From: Clostridiales bacterium GWD2_32_19
GTDB lineage: Bacteria > Bacillota > Clostridia > Lachnospirales > UBA12420
Assembly (NCBI GenBank): GCA_001795385.1
Contig: MGOU01000023.1
Location: 1 to 55,577 of the forward strand
Direction of reading: 5' to 3'
DNA: 55,577 bases
Shown here: in pieces, positions 1,981 through 55,577 of the stretch
Position numbering within the stretch: the stretch's first letter is position 1
How the letters are laid out: every line of letters starts with the position of its first letter
Notes under the pieces: model-generated
What the model was told of the DNA's origin: nothing
Databases searched by the model: none
What the model saw: only the letters and a program-made list of their open reading frames with translations
Position numbers and translations under genes: made by a program

Positions 1981-2478
1981 CTACAAATAATTATTCATGT
2001 GGGTATCTTTTTCTAATTCCCATGCTATCGGATTTTGTTCTATGTATTTACGTATTTCATATAATTCCTTTTCATTTCTGATAATATGTTCAAAATAACT
2101 TATTTGCCATATCTTTTTGTCGAATTTTTCCCAACCGAGTTCTTTAACACCTTTAATATATTCATTTGTTGATAAAGATTTAAAAGCACAAACAATATCG
2201 TGGATTGAAATTTCAGCGTTGTTTTTTATTTGCACTATGCCGTGAATATGATTAGGCATGATAATAAATTTGTCCAAGTTAATATTACTAAATCTGACTG
2301 TTAAATCATTCCAAAATTCTTCAACCATTAATCCTTTTTCATTCATATATATGACACTATCAACGACTGTACCAAATAAATGTTTTTGTGCATGTGTGCA
2401 TATAGTTATAAAATAAAATCCATCATCAGAATAATCGTAATTTTTTAGATGAACTCTTTTAGTGTACTTAACTTCTAT
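1981..2478 (-). mobile_element. REP-associated tyrosine transposase (RAYT, Y1 family), start codon damaged
   Basis: The best open frame with an ATG starts at 2346 (121 aa). The frame is open further upstream, and translated sequence before that ATG is family-like: TKRVHLKNYDYSDDGFYFIT, then ICTHAQKHLFG. Reading back, the natural start lies behind an AAAGGATG ribosome site but is ATA (2476-2478) where ATG is expected. Catalytic features are present: the HUH motif in IMPNHIHGIV and the Tyr of KYIEQNP near the C-terminus, the nucleophile of Y1 single-strand transposases. The gene is bracketed by inverted GTAG REPs (1920-1942 and 2501-2524), giving a 605-bp unit. Translation from ATA would be weak, so the element may be inactive. 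The annotated extent includes the upstream frame. Confidence 0.8.
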
Positions 2479-2649: not shown

Positions 2650-2877
2650 GAATATACCTCTGTTTACATTATTACTCCTATTTTATAACAAAAAAATATC
2701 AATGTCTATAAAACTCGAATTAAGTGTATGTTTTTGCGAGCGAATGGTATGAAAACTTGTGTAGAGTATCGTTCGTTACGAACATCATGCATTTGGTGTA
2801 AGGATTTGACAAAAATAACATTTTGAAAAACAAAAAAGGTAATGTTGTAAGTATTTATAAAAAGTTTTTTAAGCATA

Positions 2878-2906
2878 TTGAGTTTTTTTGGTTTTTATTG
2901 TATAAT
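2878..2906 (+). promoter_or_regulatory. Promoter of the methyltransferase gene
   Basis: TTGAGT (2878-2883), 17 bp, consensus TATAAT (2901-2906), about 31 bp before the ATG. The 2650-2877 interval otherwise shows no gene, only AT-rich sequence. Confidence 0.65.
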
Positions 2907-2937
2907 CATAGAATACTTTTAATATTGGGGGTAGCTT

Positions 2938-4020
2938 ATGTATAATATTATAGATTTTTTTTCTGGTGCAGGTGGATTAGGATTTGGTTTTAAAAAAACA
3001 GGGGATTTTAATATAGCACTAGCGACAGATTTTTGGGATACTGCGATCGAAACATATAAGGAAAACAATCCTAAAACAAAAACATTAGTTGCAGATATGT
3101 TTGAATTAGAAAGTGCTAAGATAAAAGAACTTACAGGGTTAGATGAGTTTGATTTATTTATTGGAGGACCTCCATGTCAAGGGTTTTCAACAGTAGGTAA
3201 AAGAGATAGTTCAGATAGAAGAAATACTCTTTTTAAAGAATATTTAAGGATTGTTGGAGATTTGAAACCTAAAATTGTAGTGATGGAAAATGTAAAAGGT
3301 ATACTTTCTATGGATTCAGGAAGTGTTAGGAAATCAATTATTAATGAATTTAACAGTAAAGGCTATAGATTAGAGTATAAAATTCTTAATACATCTGACT
3401 TTGGTGTTCCGCAAGAACGAGAAAGGGTTATATTCATTGCTGTAAGAAAAGATTTAGATATACCCATAATTTTTCCAGAGCCGACAATAATAGATATGAA
3501 AAATAAGATTACATTAAAAGATGCTATTTCTGACTTGCCAAAATTAGACTCAAATCAGCACAAACAAGCATATGAGGTCAAACCTTTAAATGATTATCAA
3601 AAACTTATGAGAGCTAATTCAACTAACTTAAATAATCATCAATATGGTGGTGTTTCAGATAAATTGGCTAAAATGATGACATATATACCAGAGGGTTTAA
3701 GCGCGTGGGAAGTTGACATTCCTGAAGACTATAAGCCTGTTAGTGGATACGGTAATACATATGCTAGATTGGATTATAATAAACCTGGGATGACTATTAC
3801 TAGAAATTTTGCTTGTATATCATCATCTAGGTGTATACATCCAGAGCAAAACAGGGGATTGTCTGCTAGAGAAGCAGCTAGAATTCAAAGTTTTCCTGAT
3901 CAGTATTCTTTTTGTGGTAACAAGACAGATATTTCTATTCAAATTGGTAACGCAGTTTCTCCTATATTAGCTGAAGCTATAGCCGATTCCATTAAAAAAA
4001 TGCTATCAGAAATTAAATAA
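2938..4020 (+). CDS. DNA (cytosine-5-)-methyltransferase of a type II restriction-modification system
   Basis: This 360-residue enzyme transfers a methyl group from SAM to C5 of cytosine within a specific site, protecting host DNA from the partner endonuclease. Motifs appear in order: I (DFFSGAGGLGFGF, residues 6-18), IV with the catalytic Cys (GGPPCQGFS, about 77-85), VI (ENVKG, about 117), VIII (QERERV, about 155), IX (RLSAREAARIQSF-like, as GLSAREAARIQSFPD), and X (GNAVSP, about 340). The target recognition region lies near 190-290; its specificity cannot be read. The start follows GGGGGTAG. The gene converges on the HNH endonuclease with an 8-bp stop overlap, inside a perfect 28-bp-arm palindrome that encodes the same last residues in both proteins. 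Island location, next to comM fragments, suggests acquisition by transfer. Confidence 0.95.
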   Translation: MYNIIDFFSGAGGLGFGFKKTGDFNIALATDFWDTAIETYKENNPKTKTLVADMFELESAKIKELTGLDEFDLFIGGPPCQGFSTVGKRDSSDRRNTLFKEYLRIVGDLKPKIVVMENVKGILSMDSGSVRKSIINEFNSKGYRLEYKILNTSDFGVPQERERVIFIAVRKDLDIPIIFPEPTIIDMKNKITLKDAISDLPKLDSNQHKQAYEVKPLNDYQKLMRANSTNLNNHQYGGVSDKLAKMMTYIPEGLSAWEVDIPEDYKPVSGYGNTYARLDYNKPGMTITRNFACISSSRCIHPEQNRGLSAREAARIQSFPDQYSFCGNKTDISIQIGNAVSPILAEAIADSIKKMLSEIK

Positions 4021-4046
4021 TTTCTGATAGCATTTTTTTAATGGAA
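3987..4046. terminator. Perfect 28-bp inverted repeat spanning both convergent stop codons
   Basis: The arms (3987-4014 and 4019-4046) are exact reverse complements around a 4-bp centre (AAAT). T tracts on both strands make it a bidirectional terminator. It also encodes SIKKMLSEI at the C-terminus of both the methyltransferase and the endonuclease. Confidence 0.9.
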
Positions 4047-4789
4047 TTTACAAACATTCGGTCATCTTTATTTTCCCATATAATATGTTCTAACATTTCA
4101 ATTTGTGTTTCTTTATCTGATTTTAATACAAATTTTGGGTCTGCAATAGCTGTAACTCGGCCAGTATCATCATATATAAAGTAGTTTCTATCTGGTCTAT
4201 TGCACTTTTCACATTGTGGTATTATATTACCTTCAGTTAGTGGTTTGGAAGGATTCTTATGCCCTTGTTGCAAATTAGTAATTGATGAAGGATAGTATCT
4301 ATTTGGCTTACCATCTTCGGAACCACAGGTTGCACATTTGTTCTTGTATTTATCTAATAAGTATAGCCAGTAATCTTCATGTTCGATAAACTCTCTTTTT
4401 TCTTTTTTAAAGTAGGGATAAGGCTTATCTAAAGTTAATAAAACATACTCTCCTGAATTTAACCCTAATTTTTTAGCTTCGATATCTCCTCTTGTTCCAG
4501 AAATTATATACCATCCACTTTGCTGGGCTAAATGTCTTGCTTGCTGAACATCATTAGGATAAATACCCATATAGTTTAAAAATTCAGTTAAGTCCTTTTT
4601 TGATACTTTTTTACCCATATTGTCATATAAATAAAATAAAACTAATGCGTTTATAGTATAGTTATACCCACTATAAAGATTTACTTTAGTTACACCTTTT
4701 TTATTTAAAAATTTACACCACTTTTCTGTAATAGCAGTGAAGTTGTTTTCAATATATGTATCAGTATATTTGTCAAATCTATTATCCAT
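4013..4789 (-). CDS. HNH-type restriction endonuclease (probable type II partner)
   Basis: A 258-residue protein if started at the ATG at 4789, which follows GAGAGG at good spacing. An upstream in-frame alternative at 4828 would add 13 residues but has no RBS. The C-terminal third carries an HNH zinc-finger nuclease: CATCG, then QQGHKNPS with the expected His, then GNIIPQCEKCN, which supplies the second Cys pair and the Asn. The N-terminal two thirds (DKYTDTYIENNF..., VQQARHLAQQSGWYI) are probably the DNA-recognition or winged-helix part. Its position opposite a C5 methyltransferase and behind a small XRE regulator is the classical C-R / M arrangement. Recognition sequence unknown. The last residues, NSIKKMLSEII, are encoded by the shared palindrome. 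Confidence 0.85.
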   Translation of the reverse strand: MDNRFDKYTDTYIENNFTAITEKWCKFLNKKGVTKVNLYSGYNYTINALVLFYLYDNMGKKVSKKDLTEFLNYMGIYPNDVQQARHLAQQSGWYIISGTRGDIEAKKLGLNSGEYVLLTLDKPYPYFKKEKREFIEHEDYWLYLLDKYKNKCATCGSEDGKPNRYYPSSITNLQQGHKNPSKPLTEGNIIPQCEKCNRPDRNYFIYDDTGRVTAIADPKFVLKSDKETQIEMLEHIIWENKDDRMFVNSIKKMLSEII

Positions 4790-4799
4790 AAATACCTCT

Positions 4800-4892
4800 C
4801 TATTCAAACATTGACTTACATTTTTCAAATTGACTAAATGGAGCTATGTTTTTAATTTTTATTTCACTTGCAGGTTTATTACCATTAAACAT
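4800..4892 (-). CDS. Possible 30-codon ORF or leftover coding segment upstream of the endonuclease
   Basis: The minus strand reads MFNGNKPASEIKIKNIAP and on to a TAG 10 bases before the endonuclease start; the frame is open about 13 further codons upstream (KTNINEKYDNKFN). Composition looks protein-like, but the ATG has no convincing RBS. It may be a small leader gene, or a remnant of a longer gene between regulator and endonuclease. Weakly supported. Confidence 0.3.
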   Translation of the reverse strand: MFNGNKPASEIKIKNIAPFSQFEKCKSMFE

Positions 4893-5002
4893 GTTGAATT
4901 TATTATCGTATTTCTCATTAATGTTTGTTTTTTATATAGTAATCGCCACCTTTATTATAAACTGCATAACTTATCACATATTAAACAGGTTATGGAAGTA
5001 AT

Positions 5003-5212
5003 CTAAAAAATAAATAATTGGTACACTTCAATATTGAGTGAAGTTGCTATTTTTTGAATATTACCAAGTGATATACTCCTATGACCTCTTTCTACATCGC
5101 TAATATAAGTTCTATGTAAACTAGCAATTTCAGCAAGTGTTTCTTGAGAAAGCTTAGCAGATATACGATATTTTCTTACATTAGCTCCAAATTTTTGGCA
5201 TATATTTTCCAT
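5003..5212 (-). CDS. XRE-family HTH regulator, probable controller (C) protein of the R-M system
   Basis: A 69-residue single-domain protein with a Cro/C1 helix-turn-helix: LSQETLAEIASLHRTYISDV (about residues 20-39), ERGHRSISL, then IQKIATSLNIEVYQLF. Length and domain content match C proteins of type II R-M systems, which delay endonuclease expression after entry into a new host and regulate their own promoter. It lies upstream of and co-directional with the endonuclease (211 bp to its start). The start has a GTGAGGTG ribosome site. Three direct repeats containing AATAAGTC lie 35-75 bp upstream and overlap the likely promoter, a good operator candidate. A generic XRE repressor remains possible. 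Confidence 0.8.
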   Translation of the reverse strand: MENICQKFGANVRKYRISAKLSQETLAEIASLHRTYISDVERGHRSISLGNIQKIATSLNIEVYQLFIF

Positions 5213-5244
5213 AAAAACACCTCACATTCATAATAACATATATC

Positions 5245-5285
5245 GACAATAAGTCTACATACAATAAGTCTACATACAATAAGTC
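5245..5285 (-). promoter_or_regulatory. Triplicate 15-bp direct repeat, probable operator of the XRE gene
   Basis: Three copies of AATAAGTC at a 15-bp period (5248-5255, 5263-5270, 5278-5285), the first two followed by TACATAC. The first also forms the near-palindrome GACAATAAGTC. On the minus strand this reads GACTTATTG repeated, over the likely -35/-10 of the regulator gene (TTGTAT near 5262 and a TATATG-like -10). Confidence 0.55.
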
Positions 5286-5414
5286 ACAAAATGCTACTCT
5301 TTTTTCATATTAGAAGGAGCTAAGTTAACAGTTATTTTATGATAGAAAATAATTAATGCTACAAGGACATAGGTAACTGTAAAGTTTAATAAAGTATATT
5401 ATTTTGTAAATAAA

Positions 5415-5572
5415 CAATGAACCTCCCCGCAGCAAGCTGACGGGGTATCATGTTGTCATTGCGAGGAACGAAGCAATCTCTCTTTTGTCTTTTAAAGAAC
5501 GGGATTGCTTCGTTCCTCGCAATGACAAATTTAGCACGCAGCAGAGCTGCAGGAAATTGACCCTAAGAGATT
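5415..5572 (+). repeat. Repeat family A, copy A1 (158 bp)
   Basis: Three hairpins in a row: CCCCG...CGGGG near the left end, a long central inverted repeat (CATTGCGAGGAACGAAGCAA paired with its complement), and GCAG...CTGC near the right end, closing with TTGACCCTAAGAGATT. Nearly identical, in reverse orientation, to copy A4 at 50569-50726. The rest of the 5290-5747 gap holds no gene that I can see, only the recJ promoter. Confidence 0.85.
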
Positions 5573-5643
5573 TTAAAAAGTATTCAAGGAACTGTTAGTT
5601 ATAGGACTTTACATACAGAGTTACCTTTTTATTACAAAAGACC

Positions 5644-5672
5644 TTGACAAAAGTTGATAAAAAAATTATACT
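5644..5672 (+). promoter_or_regulatory. Promoter upstream of recJ
   Basis: TTGACA (5644-5649), 17 bp, TATACT (5667-5672), 76 bp before the start codon. Confidence 0.6.
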
Positions 5673-5747
5673 GATTAGTAATGATTGATGTAGAATAAGC
5701 AATAATTAAGAATGATAAATTTAAAGAAATTTTAAAGGGGAATACGC

Positions 5748-7844
5748 ATGATAAAAGGCAAGTATGATTGGAATTATGTAGATAGTATAGAATTTGTCTG
5801 TGATAGAGATATAAATCAGACTGAGATTATTCAAAGGCTTTTATATAATAGAGGTATAAAGGGTAAGGAAAATGTAGAAAAGTTTCTTAATCCTACCATT
5901 GCACAGTTTTACGACCCGTATTTACTAAATGATATGGATAGCGCGGTGACTAGAATTATAGAAGCTGTAAATATTAATGAAAGAGTAGCCATATATGGTG
6001 ATTACGATGTAGATGGTATAACAAGTACATCTATACTCTATTTATATCTGAAAAAATTAGGTGCAAGTGTAGATTATTATATACCTAATAGATTAGAAGA
6101 AGGTTATGGTATAAATAAAAATGCATTGGATATATTGAAAGATAGTGGGGCGAGTCTAATAATTACTGTGGATACAGGTATATCAGCATTAGAACAAGTA
6201 GAATATGCCAAGATGATAGGCATAGAGATTATTATAACTGATCACCACGAATGTCAAGAAATAATACCAAATGCATTTGCAGTTATAAACCCCAAAAGAC
6301 CTGATTCTACATATCCATTTAGCGATTTGGCAGGGGTTGGTGTTGCATTTAAACTGATACATGCATTAGCTATAAAAGTGGGTAATGTAGATGACATATG
6401 GGAGTATCTTGGTATTGTGGCAATAGGTACGGTAGCAGATATTGTGCCACTCACAAGTGAAAACAGGGTTATAGCGAAGTTTGGGTTTGAGAAGATAAAA
6501 GTAACTACAAATGTGGGTCTAAGGGCCCTGTTAAAAGAAGTAGGTTATAAAGATACAACAAATATAACATCAGGATTTATTGGATTTATATTAGCACCCA
6601 GATTAAATGCAGCTGGTAGGATAGACGACGCAAAAAAATGTGTAACGCTTTTTGTAACTGATGATGAAGAAGAAGCAAGTTCTATAGCTAAAGGATTAGA
6701 AAAAAATAATCAAGATAGGCAAAAACTAGAGCAACGGATATTAAATGAAGTAATTGAGTGTGTACAAAATGATGAAAGATATAGCAAATCAAAAGCAATT
6801 GTTATTGCAAAAGAAGGATGGCATCATGGAGTTATAGGTATTGTTGCATCTAAAATAGTTGATAAATTTTACAAACCAACTATTTTACTTAATATAGAAG
6901 ATGGTAAGGCAACAGGTTCAGCTAGAAGTATAGCTGGATTTAGTATATTTGAATGTGTAGGCAGTGGAAAAGAATTTTTAACCAAATATGGTGGACATCA
7001 GATGGCAGCAGGTCTTTCTTTAGATATGAATAATTTTGAAAATTTTAGAAAAGAAGTAGAGTGCTATGCTGAGGAAACGATATCAACTGAAATGTTGGTA
7101 CCTAAGATAAAAATAGAAGGTGAACTAAAAGATAAGGATATAACAATAAATTTTATAAAAAATATAGAAAAATTAGAACCGTATGGAATGGGAAATTCTC
7201 AACCAAATTTCTCGTTTTGCGGTGAAATAGAAAATTTTAGACTTTTAGGTAAAGAAAGTAGTCATTTAAAGTTGAAAATTAGACAAAATAATGTTATAAT
7301 AGATGCAATAATGTTTAATTCATCAGAACATTTTAAAAAACTTGATAATGAAATGGATATAATGGTTGCAGGAAACTTGCAAATAAATGAATGGAATGAA
7401 AATATAATTCCACAAATTATTATAAAGGATATTAAGAGTGAAATATGTAAATTATATGATGTATACAATATTTTTAAAAGCATAGAGCATGGAAAATTAG
7501 ATGAAATTAGTTGTAAAAAAATAAAAAATCTAGTTTGTAATGTAGAAGAATTAAATATTTCAAGGACCGATTGTGCACAAGTGTATAAATATTTTCACAA
7601 TAAAAAGAAAGAAGGTAAAGTTACTGAAAATATTGATAATATAATAGGTATACTAAATATGAATATATTTAAGATTTTAGTTATTATGGATGTATTTAAA
7701 GAAATGAAGTTAGCTAGAGTTAATATTTTGGGCGATAACTTGGTGGAGTTTGAGGTCTTAAATAGTAGTGAAAAAACAGATTTAACTAAATCAGAATTGC
7801 TTATAAAATTGAATGAGTGGCTAGCAAATTTGAAATTTAGTTAA
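5748..7844 (+). CDS. recJ: Single-stranded-DNA-specific exonuclease RecJ
   Basis: A 698-residue DHH-family 5'-3' exonuclease acting in recombinational and mismatch repair. Visible are the DHH-domain metal motif YGDYDVDGITSTS (about residues 83-95), the ITDHHE motif (about 164-169), PRLNAAGRIDDA (about 284-295), and the DHHA1 signature GGHQMAAGLSLD (about 415-426), followed by an OB-like region (about 450-560). The last ~130 residues extend beyond the minimal RecJ core, as in many Firmicute RecJ proteins. The ATG follows AAAGGGG. It opens the housekeeping block after the R-M island, with an HD-GYP gene next. Confidence 0.95.
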   Translation: MIKGKYDWNYVDSIEFVCDRDINQTEIIQRLLYNRGIKGKENVEKFLNPTIAQFYDPYLLNDMDSAVTRIIEAVNINERVAIYGDYDVDGITSTSILYLYLKKLGASVDYYIPNRLEEGYGINKNALDILKDSGASLIITVDTGISALEQVEYAKMIGIEIIITDHHECQEIIPNAFAVINPKRPDSTYPFSDLAGVGVAFKLIHALAIKVGNVDDIWEYLGIVAIGTVADIVPLTSENRVIAKFGFEKIKVTTNVGLRALLKEVGYKDTTNITSGFIGFILAPRLNAAGRIDDAKKCVTLFVTDDEEEASSIAKGLEKNNQDRQKLEQRILNEVIECVQNDERYSKSKAIVIAKEGWHHGVIGIVASKIVDKFYKPTILLNIEDGKATGSARSIAGFSIFECVGSGKEFLTKYGGHQMAAGLSLDMNNFENFRKEVECYAEETISTEMLVPKIKIEGELKDKDITINFIKNIEKLEPYGMGNSQPNFSFCGEIENFRLLGKESSHLKLKIRQNNVIIDAIMFNSSEHFKKLDNEMDIMVAGNLQINEWNENIIPQIIIKDIKSEICKLYDVYNIFKSIEHGKLDEISCKKIKNLVCNVEELNISRTDCAQVYKYFHNKKKEGKVTENIDNIIGILNMNIFKILVIMDVFKEMKLARVNILGDNLVEFEVLNSSEKTDLTKSELLIKLNEWLANLKFS

Positions 7845-55396: not shown

Positions 55397-55420
55397 AAAA
55401 GACATAAAAAGAGCATGTTT

Positions 55421-55470
55421 AAGAGATTAAAATAAGGGTATGATTAATCATACCCTTATTTTAATCTCTT
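55421..55470. terminator. Perfect 23-bp-arm palindrome
   Basis: Arms 55421-55443 and 55448-55470 are exact complements around TTAA. The core is ATTAAAATAAGGGTATG. It lies between D3 and the last family A copy and could stop transcription in both directions. Confidence 0.7.
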
Positions 55471-55577
55471 AGGGTCAATTCCCCGTAGCTCTGCTGCGTG
55501 CGTCCTGTCATTGGATGTCGAAACCACCAGCGGAGCTGGTGAGAATAGAGTAAGCAGTAGCGATGAGGATGACAAAA
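55465..55577 (-). repeat. Repeat family A, partial copy at the window edge (A5)
   Basis: AATCTCTTAGGGTCAATTCC and GCTCTGCTGCGTGCG match family A, then CACCAGCGGAGCTGGTG hairpin and AGCGATGAGGATGACA, a different interior. Continues out of the window. Confidence 0.6.

Follow-up and report, generated by a model that had tools for sequence, protein, structure and literature searches.

The convergent methyltransferase (M) and putative endonuclease (R) genes of a restriction-modification (R-M) cassette from Clostridiales bacterium GWD2_32_19 overlap tail to tail inside a perfect inverted repeat (positions 3986-4047), and their products share a nine-residue ending. The window, that is, the whole stretch of DNA analysed here, comprises the 55,577 nucleotides of contig MGOU01000023.1. 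We hold it to be likely that the repeat serves as a terminator common to the M unit and the (C-)R unit, and that its M-derived arm was reverse-copied onto R. This is the best explanation of the sequence, its predicted fold and the comparison with homologues, from which we infer both termination and the mechanism of copying.

The R-M cassette and its surroundings

M (2938-4020, + strand) is a C5-cytosine DNA methyltransferase of 360 aa, which matches Pfam PF00145 (4e-77) and TIGR00675 (3e-68) and has 3g7u as its closest solved relative. R (4013-4789, - strand) encodes a putative HNH restriction endonuclease of 258 aa, read from the ATG at 4789 in an open reading frame that extends to a TTG at 4828. 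The R sequence alone produced no match in Pfam or NCBIfam; weak HNH matches were found in 6 of 16 members of the R family (best E 0.014), and the 16-member alignment has invariant C152, C155, H177, C193 and C196. The fold of R resembles HNH domains of a Cas9 (E 0.03), EcoKMcrA (0.3) and PacI (0.7), none of these resemblances being significant by E-value alone.

Members of the R family adjoin C5 methyltransferases in most of 18 homologous loci. Their distribution is scattered and takes in Clostridia, Bacteroidales, Parcubacteria and archaeal MAGs, and a search of 96 relatives and of 391 genomes from the class returned effectively no R relatives outside the bacterium's own genome. Viral relatives are only 31-38% identical and were left out of the comparison of protein tails. 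A phage or plasmid origin of R was considered and rejected, with no phage match and two distant matches to Thermus plasmids.

A gene for a small HTH protein of 69 aa (5003-5212, - strand; Pfam HTH_3, 7e-14) lies 213 bp upstream of the R start codon on the same strand, and its position and HTH fold make this protein a candidate controller (C) protein. In a genome of the same genus (G001) the 5' end of comM, a gene named from its translated 5' fragment, is directly beside recJ, and R is absent from both this genome and G002; the R-M cassette is therefore an insertion of accessory DNA that separates comM from recJ. The comM 5' end is present in three direct copies (86-240, 1044-1185 and 2543-2649; 88-95% identical) bounding successive comM-recJ modules, an arrangement that looks like stepwise insertion with duplication of the comM 5' end. 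The comM-recJ insertion also contains an IS200-like or REP-associated Y1 (RAYT-like) transposase gene at 1981-2346 (- strand).

A perfect palindrome holding both stop codons

The palindrome is 62 bases long, with two fully complementary 30-bp arms (3986-4015 and 4018-4047; 100%) separated by a 2-nt centre, AA (4016-4017). The first-pass annotation had rightly described a perfect palindrome at this place, but with a slight under-count of its extent (28-bp arms and a 4-bp centre, 3987-4046). The longest perfect arms (loop of at most 10) reached just 9-13 bp when the window was simulated in 20 first-order Markov versions, which argues that the palindrome is not a product of chance.

Long perfect hairpins are common in the host genome, with 23 perfect palindromes having arms of at least 15 bp in ~397 kb. 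The 30-bp arms are the longest in the genome sample, other perfect hairpins having arms of, among others, 28, 27, 27, 27, 26 and 25 bp. Near the end of the window, positions 55420-55471 form a perfect palindrome of 52 bp that consists of two 26-bp arms without a loop, and no called gene ends within 200 bp of it. A REP-like imperfect inverted repeat (attgcgaggaacgaagcaatc...) lies at 5453-5528, and similar-looking sequence is also found after 55471. The element at 3986-4047 is present in one copy in its own genome and was not found in viral contigs, and a mobile or repeated element was rejected on this account; the earlier suggestion that the repeat had spread was not borne out.

Both stop codons of the convergent pair fall within the palindrome. 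The M stop (TAA, 4018-4020, + strand) and the R stop (TAA, 4015-4013, - strand) delimit a gene overlap of 8 bp (4013-4020), as had been noted at first pass, and mirror each other exactly about the centre of the palindrome, with the two codon grids in register (phase 0). The C-termini are ...ADSIKKMLSEIK in M and ...VNSIKKMLSEII in R. Because the stops lie in opposite arms and the frames are in register, both proteins end in SIKKMLSEI, the common ending recognised in the first-pass annotation, followed by K in M and I in R; this last difference is due to the 2-nt centre alone. In the predicted structures the SIKKMLSEI region belongs to the last helix of M (342-357; block pLDDT 97/92) and to an extra end helix of R (244-257; 91/82).

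Since the genome is a draft of 47 contigs, the palindrome could in principle be an assembly artefact, a foldback chimera of two unrelated ends. We regard the probability of this as negligible, given that both genes are full length, that M and R are also convergent in independent genomes (L001, L014 and L016) and that hairpins of similar size occur throughout the genome.

A predicted terminator at the convergent junction

From its sequence anatomy, the palindrome is most likely a bidirectional intrinsic terminator. A hairpin core with 16-bp arms (4000-4033, both strands) is placed between A7 (3993-3999) and T7 (4034-4040) on the + strand, with the same layout on the - strand, and on each strand a U tract directly follows the core stem on its 3' side. 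The core RNA has a predicted fold of -18.2 kcal/mol with 15 bp, and the whole element of -38.5 (+) and -38.2 (-) kcal/mol (z -14.4 and -11.5). This anatomy supports, as a prediction, the earlier proposal of a bidirectional terminator lying within the coding sequence of M and R alike. Whichever side RNA polymerase comes from, it would form a hairpin of 15-16 bp followed by seven U and stop there; this would end each mRNA and keep M transcription out of R and vice versa. The terminator stem would double as code for the nine residues at the end of each protein.

A stem preceded by an A-tract has been described for bidirectional terminators, with enrichment in Firmicutes (PMC12207403, PMC1852404), and in Gram-positive bacteria upstream A-tracts mark such terminators (PMC12207403). 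A consensus terminator scan of positions 2700-5750, which counts at most 20 pairs and needs a T run just outside the stem, returned 0 sites. It probably missed the element because the longer stem pairs the T tract as well; TransTermHP uses a special rule since the A and T tails of bidirectional terminators pair together (PMC1852404).

The closest described layout is that of the type II R-M system Csp231I, where C is upstream of R on one strand, M is convergent and a predicted Rho-independent terminator lies between R and M (PMC4824078). However, the Csp231I terminator occupies a 152-nt intergenic region (PMC4824078), whereas here it is inside overlapping coding ends, and the C protein of the present cassette is a candidate only. 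Bidirectional intrinsic terminators of convergent genes in TransTermHP and Term-seq surveys similarly combine a hairpin and A/T tracts with tail-to-tail genes (PMC1852404, PMC12207403); compared with these, the stem described here is 30 bp long, perfect and coding for both protein ends. No paper on convergent genes that have a palindromic bidirectional terminator came up in a literature search. The element at 3986-4047 is a neat variant within a familiar class and not a new mechanism.

Against the terminator reading, the core is AT-rich and perfect pairing extends 7 bp past the A/T tracts, beyond what termination needs. This continued pairing, the centre of only 2 nt and the many long perfect palindromes in the genome, among them the one at 55420-55471 with no gene stop nearby, would fit a palindrome that is mainly a mutational by-product of template switching or inverted duplication at abutting genes, with incidental terminator features. 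We consider this unlikely in view of the A7/T7 tracts on both sides and of the homologous loci, in which hairpins of unrelated sequence recur at the same convergent junction. In these loci, with M facing R or some other gene, the junction hairpins are perfect in L014 (13-bp arms), L016 (18 bp, GC-rich), L009 and L010 (12 bp) and L017 (13 bp), and imperfect but in register, with overlapping genes, in L001 and L011. As the position recurs and the sequence does not, a hairpin at the convergent junction of M is not accidental. The first-pass annotation had argued that homologous pairs with unrelated C-termini and no palindrome would make the case a local accident; most homologous pairs do have unrelated C-termini, but the junction palindrome recurs, in unrelated sequence.

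Similar arrangements were found elsewhere in the host genome, which was sampled as stretches totalling ~743 kb. Both stops of a close convergent pair fall inside a perfect hairpin in 4 cases in this sample, a count that is approximate since genes were called as longest ORFs: the M-R pair of the window, L049 (17-bp arms), L069 (13 bp) and L080 (27 bp). In L049 (11689-11728) the genes for a 136-aa protein and an RsmI-like methylase overlap by 4 bp and, as in the M-R pair, have both stops and C-termini in the hairpin; they differ from it in being out of register (phase 1) and in ending in unlike peptides (QNKNEQD and LKTKMSN).

The M and R transcript hairpins are complementary to each other, loops included, and the mRNA of the endonuclease is under antisense control in other R-M systems (Eco29kI, PMC12707154). 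It is nevertheless quite improbable that the stability of the two mRNAs is coupled through a 3'-3' antisense duplex, a pairing raised as possible at first pass, or through RNase III processing: folding of each arm on itself (-38 kcal/mol) takes precedence, termination would leave little transcript overlap, and homologues with non-overlapping genes retain hairpins.

Origin and meaning of the shared ending

The two proteins differ in how far homology reaches into their ends. With the window excluded, the profile of the M relatives aligns as far as residue 358 of 360, spanning SIKKMLSE, and the relatives have C-terminal helices such as AIADSVKDCL and ALKDSIKRYL. In contrast, the corresponding R profile ends at residue 240 of 258, leaving a tail (residues 241-258 plus the stop; 4013-4069, - strand) that includes SIKKMLSEI; R relatives mostly end earlier, with variable and unrelated tails. 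The arm peptide is thus native to M and foreign to R. This answers a homologue check proposed at first pass and makes it likely that the arm was copied onto R by inverted duplication, as that annotation had suggested, or by template switching.

On the evidence of the sequences, the direction of copying was most likely from M to R. The arm would have been part of M ancestrally, coding for the end of its conserved last helix. Through a short inverted duplication, most simply a template switch during replication, the 3' end of M was probably reverse-copied over a short range onto the 3' end of R, or an older imperfect hairpin was perfected. The copied stretch would have lengthened R by ~18 residues, with the R frame falling by chance (1 in 3) in the register that yields the same peptide. 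Template switching can make perfect hairpins in a single event (PMC8794818) and homogenises the arms of inverted repeats in coding DNA (PMC8604942). Such template-switch hairpins and coding palindromes are likewise perfect inverted repeats, some of them in coding DNA (PMC8794818, PMC8604942), and coding palindromes are also known from the mitochondria of Nematomorpha (PMC6649704). The known examples lie within one gene or RNA, whereas here each arm is part of a different gene, the two being encoded on opposite strands.

No R-M pair by which the copying could be dated was found in a close relative (same species or genus). In L001, a MAG contig, the overlapping genes end in KKFLSGIFR (R) and KDFLSENTR, so a SIKKMLSEI-like tail of R may predate a single recent copying event. 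The overlapping pair of L011 ends in KKSDQD and KKNDQS and involves a different M. As the hairpins of L001 and L011 are imperfect and in register, an older imperfect hairpin in the R-M lineage, perfected later, is possible. In L011 (226-1931) the R homologue is accompanied by two C5 methyltransferase genes, of which the second, less related one makes the in-register overlap with R.

Nine identical residues, helical in both models, might be taken for a tag selected in M and R alike, serving for instance in localisation, proteolysis or interaction. This is extremely unlikely: the peptide is absent from R homologues, in-register reading has a chance of 1/3, and L049 has the same architecture with different peptides. 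The out-of-register L049 pair indicates that the common peptide hinges on register, as expected in one case out of three. The shared M-R peptide is a local by-product, with no inferred function of its own.

Alone, the case at 3986-4047 leaves knowledge of R-M systems and of termination unchanged. It presents one non-coding signal written into the coding ends of two opposed genes, the original owner of which is revealed by homologues. Collected, such cases would make it possible to estimate directly how frequently C-termini are rewritten by template switching at shared terminators. We suggest, tentatively and with considerable doubt, that convergent R-M pairs may repeatedly build their terminator from the coding end of M, template switching then adding M-derived C-terminal peptides to R, as in the window and perhaps in L001 and L011. 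If true, this would mean that genes on opposite strands exchange protein tails by a small and recurring route.
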